64,000 nucleotides of DNA, taken from NCBI RefSeq assembly GCF_000092645.1, contig NC_014165.1, positions 124,001-188,000 on the forward strand, read 5' to 3'. This DNA is from Thermobispora bispora DSM 43833 (GTDB taxonomy: Bacteria; Actinomycetota; Actinomycetes; Streptosporangiales; Streptosporangiaceae). Shown in pieces: positions 8,511-13,918 of this stretch (its first letter is position 1; each line of letters starts with the position of its first letter). The notes beneath the pieces were generated by a model that had not been told where the DNA came from, searched no databases, and saw only the letters and a list, made by a program, of their open reading frames with translations. The position numbers and the translations under genes were made by a program.

Positions 8511-8873
8511 CTGCCTCCTGCTCCAGGGGCGGAAAACGGCGTGTTGCCGATCATTCGGTGACGAACCAGGTCTGCTATATGCCCTTTGACGGCATGGTCG
8601 CGGCCGGGCGCGGGAGTGCCAAGTGCAGAAAGCTGGTCAAACGTAATGGCCAGAACGGCCAGAATGCGCGCCGCCCCGCCCGGTGGCCTCGGAAATGATC
8701 ATGTTCCGGAGCTGAAGATCACTATTCGGCGGGCGGCCGTCTGAAAGAAAAGCGCGAACCCGGTGGCGCGGTTCGCGAACCCGGTGGCGCGGTTCCGGTG
8801 TCCCGCGACACGCGCTCGGGTTTTCTACGGAAATCTACGACGGGCGCTATATCCCGCAATAAGGTCCGAGACC
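8511..8873. other. Gene-free stretch with a perfect 21 bp tandem duplication
   Basis: Divergent intergenic region between the hypothetical gene and the AAA ATPase. At 8754-8774 and 8775-8795 the 21 bp unit starting GCGAACCCGGTGGCG is repeated exactly. The rest is comparatively A/T-richer and probably holds both promoters. Confidence 0.6.
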
Positions 8874-10049
8874 ATGGACCCGGTGCGCAATCCCTACGCG
8901 CCCGGCGCGGGCCAGCGGCCGCCCGAGCTCGCCGGGCGCGATAGAGAGCTGCGGCAGTTCGAGATCGTGCTGGAGCGCGTGGCCCGCGGCCGGCCGGAGC
9001 GGAGCATGGTGCTCACCGGGCTCCGCGGGGTCGGCAAGACCGTGCTGCTCAACACGTTCAAGTCCATGGCGATGCAGCGGCTGTGGGGGACCGGGAAGAT
9101 CGAGGCCCGGCCCGACCAGTCGATCCGGCGGCCGGTCGCCGCCGCGCTGCACATGGCCATCCGGGAGCTCGCACCCCGGCACCGCGCGCCCGAGCGCATC
9201 GAGCACGTCCTCAGCGTGCTCAAGGCGTTCGCGCTGCGCGACCCCGGCAAGGGCGCCGCGAACTGGACGCCCGCGATCGACGTGCCGGCCGCGCGCGGCC
9301 GGGCCGACTCCGGGGACTTGGTGATCGACCTCACCGAGCTGTTCGTCGACGCGGCGAGCGTCGCCGCCGACCTCGGCGTCGGCATCGCGCTCTTCATCGA
9401 CGAGATGCAGGACGTGCGGCCGCCGGACATCTCGGCGCTCTGCGCCGCCTGCCATGAGCTGTCGCAGAGCGGCGGGCCGCTGATCGTGGTGGGCGCGGGC
9501 CTGCCGCACCTGCCCACCGTGCTCTCGGCGAGCAAGAGCTACTCGGAACGGCTGTTCCGCTACACGCGGATCGACCGGCTCGACCGGGAGGCCGCGGACC
9601 AGGCGCTCATCGCCCCGGCCGCCCGGGAGGGCGTCGAGTTCACGCCCGGCGCGCTCGACGCGCTCTACGAGGCGGCCGACGGCTACCCGTACTTCGTCCA
9701 GGCGTACGGGAAGGTCGTCTGGGACTACGCCCCGAAGAGCCCGATCACCGCGGACGACGTCGCGGTGGCGGCCCCGGAGGCGGAGGAGGAGCTCGCCGTG
9801 GGGTTCTTCGGCAGCCGGTACGAGCGGGCCACCCCGGCCGAGCGCGACTACATGCGGGCCATGGCGCGGCTCGGCGACGACCCGGTGCCGACCGCCGCCG
9901 TGGCCGAGGTGCTCGGCCGCAAGCCGTCCAGCCTCTCCCCGGCCCGGGACAGCCTGATCAAGAAAGGGCTGATCTACAGCGCCGAGCGCGGGCTGGTCGG
10001 CTTCACCGTCCCGCACTTCGGGCGGTTCCTCCGCGCCCAGCCGGTGTAG
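8874..10049 (+). CDS. AAA-type ATP-binding protein with C-terminal winged helix
   Basis: 391 residues from the ATG at 8874 (MDPVRNPYAPGAGQRPPELAGR). Walker A is GLRGVGKT near residue 50, Walker B is ALFIDEMQD near residue 170, and a sensor-like ...GAGLPHLP follows. The C-terminal ~90 residues (RDYMRAMARLGDD, VAEVLGRKPSSLSPARDSL, KKGLIYSAERGLVGFTVP) look like a winged-helix DNA- or partner-binding domain. The layout is Orc1/Cdc6-like, shared by a large group of stand-alone actinobacterial ATPases of unknown role. No toxin, nuclease or recombinase gene adjoins it, so no defence or mobile-element job can be claimed. A strong 19 bp hairpin follows. Confidence 0.85.
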   Translation: MDPVRNPYAPGAGQRPPELAGRDRELRQFEIVLERVARGRPERSMVLTGLRGVGKTVLLNTFKSMAMQRLWGTGKIEARPDQSIRRPVAAALHMAIRELAPRHRAPERIEHVLSVLKAFALRDPGKGAANWTPAIDVPAARGRADSGDLVIDLTELFVDAASVAADLGVGIALFIDEMQDVRPPDISALCAACHELSQSGGPLIVVGAGLPHLPTVLSASKSYSERLFRYTRIDRLDREAADQALIAPAAREGVEFTPGALDALYEAADGYPYFVQAYGKVVWDYAPKSPITADDVAVAAPEAEEELAVGFFGSRYERATPAERDYMRAMARLGDDPVPTAAVAEVLGRKPSSLSPARDSLIKKGLIYSAERGLVGFTVPHFGRFLRAQPV

Positions 10050-11375: not shown

Positions 11376-12188
11376 TCACCGGGAGATCGGCACGCGGCTG
11401 TCGTCCGCGATCGCGGGCGCGCCGTCCGGCGGGACCACGGCGGCCTTCACCGCCGGGCGCCGGCCGCTCAGGTAGACGGCGAACACCACCTCGGAGCCGT
11501 CCTTGGCGGGGAAGGTGAAGAAGCGCCAGCACAGCTCGCGCCACATGTCGCTCGGCTCCTCCGCGGCGAGCATGGGCCGGTGCGCCCGCCACGCCGCGCT
11601 CGCCTTGAGCCGGGAGAGCGCCCGGCCGGGCGGGATGCGCCGCTGCTCGCAGGGCGCCCGGTAGCGCACCCGGTCGATCAGTTCCTCCACCTCGGGGGAG
11701 AGCAGGAGCAGCAGCGCCGCGTAACCCGCGATCCACGCCGCCACCGTGCCCGACCAGAGGGCCGGCAGGTCCGCCCCGGTGACCCGCTCCAGCGCCACCA
11801 GGACCGCCATCGCGGTGAGCACCGCGGACCGGGCGATCGAGCGCAGCCCGACCGGGGCCACGCTGACGTCCCCGAAGCAGCCGCACCCCGCGTCGGGCCG
11901 CCGCTTGCGCAGGTCCCACAGCACGTACGTGGCGATGGAGAAGAAGACCACGGGCAGCCAGCGCGCGGCGGGGTGGTCGGCGAAGACCAGGGCGGCGGCG
12001 AGCGCGAACTCCCCGGCCGCGCAGCAGATCATCGCGGGCCGGGCGAACCGCTCCGGCACGAGCACGGCGGGCCCGAGGCGGGCGAGGGCGCCCGGCGCGG
12101 AGTCGCCGGCGGCGAGCTTGGCCACGCCCCCCAGGACCAGCATCGCCACCACGATCGGCAGGGCGGCTGCGGCAGCGAACTGAAGCAC
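11376..12188 (-). CDS. MauE/DoxX-like redox-associated membrane protein
   Basis: 270 residues. The N-terminal ~165 residues contain about four membrane helices and the family motif GCGCFGDVSVAPVG, whose CxC pair is the presumed redox site of MauE-type proteins. MauE is needed, with MauD, to form the many disulfides of the methylamine dehydrogenase light chain. The C-terminal ~100 residues are soluble and not part of the usual MauE domain. The gene lies 3 nt after the cysteine-rich gene 12192-13142 in the same direction, so the two are surely co-transcribed. That pairing suggests this protein keeps the neighbour's cysteines oxidised. MauD is not present. Confidence 0.8.
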   Translation of the reverse strand: MLQFAAAAALPIVVAMLVLGGVAKLAAGDSAPGALARLGPAVLVPERFARPAMICCAAGEFALAAALVFADHPAARWLPVVFFSIATYVLWDLRKRRPDAGCGCFGDVSVAPVGLRSIARSAVLTAMAVLVALERVTGADLPALWSGTVAAWIAGYAALLLLLSPEVEELIDRVRYRAPCEQRRIPPGRALSRLKASAAWRAHRPMLAAEEPSDMWRELCWRFFTFPAKDGSEVVFAVYLSGRRPAVKAAVVPPDGAPAIADDSRVPISR

Positions 12189-12191
12189 GAC

Positions 12192-13142
12192 CTACCCCAA
12201 TCCCACTCGGACGTTGAAGCAGCCCTTGGTCAGCTCACCACCGAGCTCGACGTAGGCGGTGGTGGAGAGCTCGACGATCCGGCCCCGCTCGGAGGTGCCG
12301 CACTCCAGGCACCGATCGCAGAAGCGCCCGGCCACGCACCCGCAGGCGACGATCGGCAGCCGGTTCCCCCGGCGGTCGCACTCGTTCAGCACGTGCAGCA
12401 CGGAGCCGAGGGAGAGGTACGGCAGGCCGGTGCAGGAGACCCCGGCGTCCTCGCACCCGGCGTCGCCGGGCTCCAGCATCGGGTAGGCCACGCCGTACTC
12501 CTCGAAGTCCCCCCAGACCGCGGTGCCCGAGATGGTGGGCTGTACTCCACGGTACGCGGGCGGGGGCGGCGGCACGGCGTTCGCCCGGTACGGGGGCTGT
12601 GACGTGGCCGGGAGGAGGGCGAGCGTGGTCCCCTCGTCGATCATCCCGATCGCGTCGAAGAGGTAGCCCGGCTCGAGCTGGGGGTGGCGGACCCGGATCC
12701 GGCCGGTGGCCCGGTAGGGGACGACGACCGACCGGGGGCGCCGGTGCGGGCCGCAGTCGAGCTCGATGGTGAGGTCCCGGTTCCCCGAGACGCTGCGGAT
12801 GGTCCCGGTGATCCGGGTGATGTCCGCCCAGACCCGGTCGGCCACCGTGCCGCCGTGCAGCGCCCGGATGATGACGTTCGCCCGCAGCGGCAGCTCGGCG
12901 GGGGCGATCGGCGCCCCGCGCCACGCGGTGGCCCAGGGGGCGATCACCAGCCGGTGCTCCTCCCCGGCGTCGTCCTCCACCACGATCAGATGCGGGCTGA
13001 CGTCGATGATCGAGCCGCGCACCGTGCCGTACGGCGCGACGTCACCGGGGGCGGGTTCCAGCGGCGCCACCTCGCGGCCCAGCGCGGCGGCGGCCAGCAT
13101 CCGCCGGCGGTCGACGGCTCGGTACGGAGTCGCGTTTCCCAC
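12192..13142 (-). CDS. Cysteine-rich protein with methylamine-dehydrogenase-light-chain-like C-terminus
   Basis: 316 residues from the GTG at 13142, which has GAGG 8 nt upstream; longer in-frame starts lack a ribosome site. Residues ~40-200 look beta-rich (repeated short V/I strands) and are unrecognised. The last ~80 residues hold nine cysteines, including ACGCVAGRFCDRCLECG and the C-terminal GCFNVRVGLG. Spacing and ending resemble the light chain MauA (CC...C.RC.C ... C....VG), but neither tryptophan of the TTQ cofactor has an equivalent, so it should not be an amine dehydrogenase. There is no obvious signal peptide, although an RRRMLAAAALG stretch lies near the start. The MauE-like gene follows in the same transcript. 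Confidence 0.65.
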   Translation of the reverse strand: MGNATPYRAVDRRRMLAAAALGREVAPLEPAPGDVAPYGTVRGSIIDVSPHLIVVEDDAGEEHRLVIAPWATAWRGAPIAPAELPLRANVIIRALHGGTVADRVWADITRITGTIRSVSGNRDLTIELDCGPHRRPRSVVVPYRATGRIRVRHPQLEPGYLFDAIGMIDEGTTLALLPATSQPPYRANAVPPPPPAYRGVQPTISGTAVWGDFEEYGVAYPMLEPGDAGCEDAGVSCTGLPYLSLGSVLHVLNECDRRGNRLPIVACGCVAGRFCDRCLECGTSERGRIVELSTTAYVELGGELTKGCFNVRVGLG

Positions 13143-13417
13143 GTTTCCAGCCTCACATGCCGTAAGCGGCGGCGCGGTGTGATTTCCGTGCCGGTGGGCG
13201 GTGCGGGGGCAAAAATCCTCCTCCAAGATGAATGGCTTCTCTCCTACTTTGCGGTAGTTAATCCCGGTAGGCCAGAGGGCCGGGATAAAGACCATGCCAC
13301 CGACCTGGCCGGGTCTTTGCCGTTGTCAGCAGGAAATCTGCATTTCGGTTCAGCCGGATTGCGGAGTGAGCCTGCCATTCTGGCACGAGACGCCCTGCAG
13401 GCCAGGCTGGTGATCGA

Positions 13418-13918
13418 ATGGTCGTGAACCATGAGGAGTTCCGCGCGTACGTGCAATCCCGCGGAGCGGCCCTGCTGCGTGTCGCCAACCAGATCACCGG
13501 AAATCCGTCCGACGCCGAGGACCTGCTCCAAGCCGCTCTCGCCAAGACGTACCTCGCGTGGGAAAAGATCAAGGATCGCGCCTCGCTCGACGGATATGTG
13601 CGGCGCGCGATGGTGAACATCAACATCTCGTGGTGGCGCCGGCGCAAGCTGGAGGAATTCCCCGCCGAGCGGCTCCCGGACGTGCCGATCCAGCCCGAGG
13701 CCAGGAATCGATACGACGAGCTCGAGCAGGCGCTCGACCGGCTTCCGGCCCGGCAGCGCACCGCGATCGTGCTGCGGTACTACGAGGACATGAGCGAGAT
13801 GGAGATCGCCAGGGCCCTGGGGATCAGCGTCGGCACGGTGAAGAGCTCGGTGTCCCGGGGGATGGCGAAGCTTCGTGACGATCTCCTCGTCTCGGCCGAC
13901 CGGAAATCTCTCAATTAG
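13418..13918 (+). CDS. SigE-family ECF RNA polymerase sigma factor
   Basis: 166 residues. Region 2 (FRAYVQSRGAALLRVANQI, DAEDLLQAALAKTYLAWEKI) is followed, after a short linker, by region 4 (ALDRLPARQRTAIVLRYYED, SEMEIARALGISVGTVKSSV). The order and length match the actinobacterial SigE-like ECF group. The start is the ATG at 13418 or the GTG two codons later; no strong ribosome site is seen. The usual partner of this group, a small membrane or exported protein immediately downstream, is missing: the next gene is 330 nt away on the other strand. The 275 bp upstream is unusually A/T-containing and likely holds the promoter. Confidence 0.88.
   Translation: MVVNHEEFRAYVQSRGAALLRVANQITGNPSDAEDLLQAALAKTYLAWEKIKDRASLDGYVRRAMVNINISWWRRRKLEEFPAERLPDVPIQPEARNRYDELEQALDRLPARQRTAIVLRYYEDMSEMEIARALGISVGTVKSSVSRGMAKLRDDLLVSADRKSLN

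Follow-up and report, generated by a model that had tools for sequence, protein, structure and literature searches.

The window, as we call the whole 64,000-nucleotide stretch of Thermobispora bispora DNA analysed here, carries two adjacent genes on its minus strand that an earlier sequence-only reading had proposed as a redox pair. Gene A (12192-13142) is an open frame of 316 amino acids with a GTG start, and gene B (11376-12188), which also starts with GTG, encodes 270 amino acids; the stop of A and the start of B lie 3 nt apart. B scored 38.9 bits with the profile of the MauE family (PF07291; cut-off 27, E = 1.2e-9), and both genes are real, with B MauE-like as that reading had it. Gene A passed no Pfam or NCBIfam family in profile searches, and sequence searches of the PDB, with A itself or with the alignment of its family, returned no match. 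The genome is a single contig of 4.19 Mb. A SigE-family sigma factor gene (13418-13918, plus strand) diverges from A, and the intergenic region between them (13143-13417) holds blocks that are strongly conserved in 79 related loci (for example CAGAATCGCAG, cggCtGAaCCg, TTTCg and cAAAG), possibly shared promoters. Beyond gene B lies an AAA ATPase gene (PF13191; window positions 8763-10049) with 83-91% identity in all 80 close relatives. A phage origin of the pair was dropped, as a scan of viral contigs (viral_contigs) found no relative, and so was a defence system, for which PADLOC gave no match.

We modelled A with AlphaFold2 from 61 sequences (mean pLDDT 78.6, pTM 0.83; the five models had pLDDT values of 78.6, 73.9, 59.2, 56.0 and 55.9). 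The model places a short N-terminal helix first, followed by two OB folds, a linker and a C-terminal double-psi beta-barrel (DPBB). The OB folds mostly reached pLDDT above 90, and the cysteine-rich loops of the barrel were poorly modelled (pLDDT below 50), so that the disulfides of A cannot be read from the model. The first OB fold (residues 39-106; 12825-13028, minus strand) matched a CusF-like OB fold (VIA-align Z 8.6), the second (residues 108-178; 12609-12821, minus strand) matched OB folds of the SSB/ExoVII type (Z 7-8), and the N-terminal half matched the tandem OB of Mpa/ARC (Foldseek E = 7e-5). According to the model, the N-terminal part of A is a tandem OB fold, and the sequence-only reading was right to call it beta-rich. 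A CusF-like metal site in the first OB fold was also considered and set aside, as no conserved Met ligands were seen in the alignment.

The C-terminal part of A (residues 203-316; 12195-12536, minus strand) is, on the evidence of the model, a cysteine-rich DPBB of the RlpA/expansin/barwin fold. Its top VIA-align match in the PDB was the RlpA-like protein PA4485 (4avr; Z 10.3, rmsd 1.6, 28% identity over 79 residues), followed by expansins, the Streptomyces papain inhibitor SPI and kiwellin, with Z values of about 9 over 80-95 residues for the expansins and SPI. The same residues contain RlpA-like motifs (GTAxW, LPYLSLGS, GRIxEL and SFVxLGG). A fell short of PF03330, without a match, and three of 57 orthologues matched it weakly (best E = 0.0068); likewise, PF03330 matched nothing in the genome that contains the window, gene A included. 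The Asp of the RlpA DRGP motif corresponds to residue 266 of A, which is Ala here and variable in the family, so the barrel of A is probably not catalytic. The invariant D276, suggested by its DR motif as the RlpA catalytic Asp, was dropped because the alignment with the split relatives described below puts the DRGP Asp at 266.

According to the sequence-only reading, this same region copies the cysteine pattern and the ending of MauA, the methylamine dehydrogenase light chain. The alignment of residues 203-316 with MauA (1mg2_B) scored 26, below the mean of 30.7 for shuffled sequences (Z -0.8). The cysteine spacing differed, with nine cysteines in A and twelve in MauA. Pfam detected no PF02975 match in A or in any of 57 orthologues at E values up to 10, and hhalign gave the family profile of A a probability of 0.1% against MauA. 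The proposed copying thus failed at the level of sequence, and the model shows a different fold, the DPBB. Residues 235-316 contain no Trp; the TTQ tryptophans are absent, as had been noted, which is to be expected of a protein that is not related to MauA by sequence. MauA chains were not among the listed Foldseek and VIA-align matches of A, which by itself proves nothing, and the PF02975 search found no gene in the window's genome, a weak absence since the control genomes were equally silent. That A is a MauA homologue without its TTQ tryptophans, with B as its MauE, could appeal to the MauE-like B and to the richness of both A and MauA in cysteines, but the missing PF02975 match, the hhalign result, the score below shuffles and a DPBB fold with clear relatives make it extremely improbable. 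Nor did anything found support the suggestion that the pair is an electron carrier.

The nine cysteines of A lie in its last ~90 residues (230, 237, 255, 267, 269, 275, 278, 281 and 308), and most are conserved across nearly the whole family. Where they are missing, they tend to be missing together: C230 and C269 in 41 sequences, which are all 41 losses of C230, C255 and C281 in 4 sequences, and C237 and C275 in 3, counts that ignore ancestry and could stem from no more than a handful of events. Such coupled loss fits what disulfide pairs predict. Separately, one orthologue (L058, 2392-3330) has lost C267, C278 and C308 together, which suggests that these three form one site.

We found A in 190 of 201 genomes of the window's family, nearly always as a single copy, and in none of 395 other sampled genomes of the phylum. 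The 190 loci represent 165 distinct A sequences, some loci being the same genome from two collections. A and B were adjacent and co-directional in all 190 loci, often with a 4-nt overlap, and three genomes (G007, G030 and G002) lacked both. This adjacency and co-absence support, in outline, the proposal of a MauE-type pair in which a disulfide-rich scaffold is fused to a beta-rich N-terminal domain, though with a fold, as modelled, and an ancestry other than those of MauA.

The SigE-family sigma gene adjoined A in 73 of 80, 38 of 40 and 40 of 40 loci in three locus sets. A sensor role is conceivable: cysteines of A that hold zinc or iron in the cytoplasm could make A-B a regulator responsive to metal or redox state, perhaps one that acts on the divergent sigma factor. 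Besides the sigma gene, the missing signal peptide of A and the CGC...CDRCxxC pattern, which resembles a metal knuckle, speak for it. The pairwise, separate cysteine losses, however, fit disulfides better than one tetrahedral site. All seven Herbidospora loci (L104, L106, L115, L117, L119, L121 and L124) keep A-B with no adjoining sigma gene, and none was noticed beside the split operons inspected. Furthermore, conservation in the close set of loci is no lower for the AAA428, MarR and YceI neighbours, so that the sigma-A-B synteny may be simple chromosomal order. We regard this regulator as unlikely, although some of the cysteines may bind metal and A-B may have a regulatory role.

In its model (pLDDT 85), B has five long hydrophobic helices, predicted to be transmembrane, and a soluble C-terminal domain (11379-11699, minus strand) containing C180 and C220. 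All of the aligned fused systems have both cysteines, whereas none of the aligned B proteins from split operons has them. The C102-G-C104 motif (CGCFG; 11877-11885, minus strand) is invariant in the fused-system alignments, with CGC in 189 of 190 loci; a conserved C-G-C pair is typical of MauE. Positive charges per protein averaged 1.5 in loop L1 and 4.1 in L3 against 0.1 in L2 and 0.2 in L4, and by the positive-inside rule the C-G-C loop and the C-terminal domain of B are predicted to lie in the cytoplasm. Foldseek found no PDB match to the B model below E = 1, and the VIA hits, NACHO/TMEM35A (Z 9.1) and VKOR (Z 6), were both within the noise for helical bundles. For MauE itself, the literature gives an inferred function (PMC7794033).

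In genomes from two further families within the order (G597 and G598; G596), the profile of A is split over neighbouring genes. In the 22 loci that we read, the DPBB gene leads, an OB gene carrying a Tat signal follows, and a MauE-like gene comes third wherever the stored DNA reaches, except in G596, where the DPBB and OB genes are present and B is not detectable. One genome of the search (G608; L203, 3008-3232) has an A cut to 74 amino acids beside an intact B, and together these two genomes indicate that the parts of the module are not strictly inseparable. Two genomes (G003 and G005) carry the split operon as a second locus besides the fused A-B pair, and the split DPBB gene also occurs in 18 of 199 genomes of one genus, probably Streptomyces. 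A phylum-wide search with the split OB profile gave no match in 296 genomes, which is uninformative as there was no positive-control genome.

The split DPBB genes encode ~140-165 amino acids with 15-17 cysteines and no signal peptide. They keep the Asp of the RlpA DRGP motif, as DCGP; two of them (L200 and L201) pass PF03330 (34.0 and 33.7 against a cut-off of 28.8), and others approach it. The barrel of A is homologous to these genes (hmmsearch E = 1.2e-9, reciprocal E = 1e-5 to 1e-7; hhalign E = 1.7e-7, shuffle Z 8.5), and its N-terminal half to the Tat-tagged OB proteins (hhalign E = 5e-11, RR start included); the OB gene of L200 scored above the cut-off of NCBIfam TAT_signal. As both halves are tied to split genes, and the RR start is kept with its hydrophobic core lost, A is most simply read, from sequence, as an OB-DPBB fusion in which gene order was swapped and the export signal lost, the direction of change, from split to fused, being presumed.

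The split operons might instead be RiPP clusters, with the DPBB protein as precursor and A-B as a domesticated relative. decRiPPter listed three candidate RiPP families from Streptomyces in which mauE homologues occur together with precursors that have 8 or more cysteines (PMC7794033), and the split operon of G005 (L221, 716-3327) adjoins genes of a kind that RiPP clusters often contain, for an M16 peptidase and a PF14907-like nucleotidyltransferase (below cut-off). Against this, the DPBB protein is domain-sized (~140 amino acids) and passes or approaches PF03330, unlike a short leader-core precursor, and four split loci (L200, L201, L219 and L220) lack consistent biosynthetic neighbours. We therefore think a RiPP origin improbable.

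A has no secretion signal and no hydrophobic N-terminus. What it does have is a conserved twin-arginine start, RRRxLAAAxLG (residues 8-22; 13077-13121, minus strand), which hhalign pairs with the Tat signal of the split-operon OB proteins and in which R13 is kept in 155 of the 165 distinct sequences. The split-operon OB proteins have both the twin arginine and the hydrophobic core, whereas A has kept only the former: its uncharged stretch has a median length of 8 residues, and its median hydropathy over 15 residues is 0.36, compared with 1.5-1.9 in the Tat-tagged relatives. The conserved start might be taken to mean that A is still exported through Tat by way of the short RR-LAAAALG segment, but with so short an uncharged stretch and a hydropathy so far below that of the tagged relatives, we give this little credence. 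As A has no signal peptide, its disulfides would need to arise within the reducing cytoplasm or right beside it.

We favour, by a modest margin over doubt, the reading that A-B is the fused family form of a three-gene module, that B is a dedicated thiol oxidoreductase of the barrel, that the split barrel is exported folded by way of the Tat-tagged OB protein, and that the complex of the window stays on the cytoplasmic side. Of the three proteins of this actinobacterial module, the cysteine-rich DPBB protein has no signal peptide, the tandem-OB protein carries a Tat signal, and the MauE-like protein, placed in the membrane, has a C-G-C pair. In the window's family the first two genes would have merged into A, OB first and then barrel, with the Tat signal shrunk to its twin-arginine remnant. 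At the membrane, the C-G-C pair of B, joined in the fused form by C180 and C220, may oxidise the paired cysteines of A or keep them exchangeable. The split barrel would leave the cell in folded form as a hitchhiker, carried through Tat by its OB partner, and the window's complex would probably remain at the cytoplasmic face, since the usable export signal is gone. The homologies, the relation of the fused to the split genes, their linkage and joint absence and the coupled cysteine losses are results of the analysis, with the fold taken from a predicted model; redox action, topology and export are what we infer.

A bolder and rather speculative version, which we hold only tentatively, is that a cytoplasm-facing C-G-C loop oxidises the barrel before Tat export, that the signal-less cargo hitchhikes on the OB protein, and that the fused cargo was retired to a resident redox partner. 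If oxidation does precede Tat export, the same logic might apply to MauE and MauA. The split relatives offer a clean test case for MauE-like oxidation of Tat cargo before export.

None of the parts (MauE-like proteins, DPBB domains, OB folds) is new. For the module that combines them, and for A as a family, we found no description in the libraries or literature searched, and the nearest published trace is the decRiPPter remark (PMC7794033). The A-B pair is nearly universal and usually single-copy in one large actinobacterial family, yet A belongs to no Pfam or NCBIfam family. A is a second type of probable client for the MauE family, whose chemistry is unsettled. Furthermore, the attribution to MauA is corrected here, and a non-RiPP reading is offered for some mauE-containing clusters.

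Several known systems share parts of this arrangement. Two tandem OB folds occur in Mpa/ARC as in A, but A lacks the ATPase, and its relatives carry a Tat signal instead. RlpA-like proteins, expansins, barwin and SPI (PF03330) have the fold and the RlpA-like motifs in common with residues 203-316, whereas A has nine cysteines, lacks the DRGP Asp and a secretion signal, and is fused to OB folds. The decRiPPter clusters (PMC7794033) combine a mauE homologue with a gene whose product has at least 8 cysteines, as the split operon does, a likeness by description only; those clusters were read as encoding RiPP precursors, and we read the split operon as a DPBB protein with a Tat-tagged OB protein. 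Hitchhiker export through Tat is known for hydrogenases and PaoABC (PMC4273604, PMC10924467). As in such pairs, the split operon has a Tat signal on one of two soluble partners, but it encodes no cofactor enzyme, its untagged partner is a cysteine-rich DPBB, and its export is putative.

The maturation of MauA by MauE (PF07291) differs from A-B in its client, here probably a DPBB with no sequence similarity to MauA and no TTQ, in a genome where no MauA gene was found, and B differs from MauE by an extra C-terminal domain with C180 and C220. The two systems nevertheless have in common a MauE-like membrane protein encoded together with a disulfide-rich protein. MauA carries a twin-arginine leader, and the split module likewise includes a Tat-tagged component.
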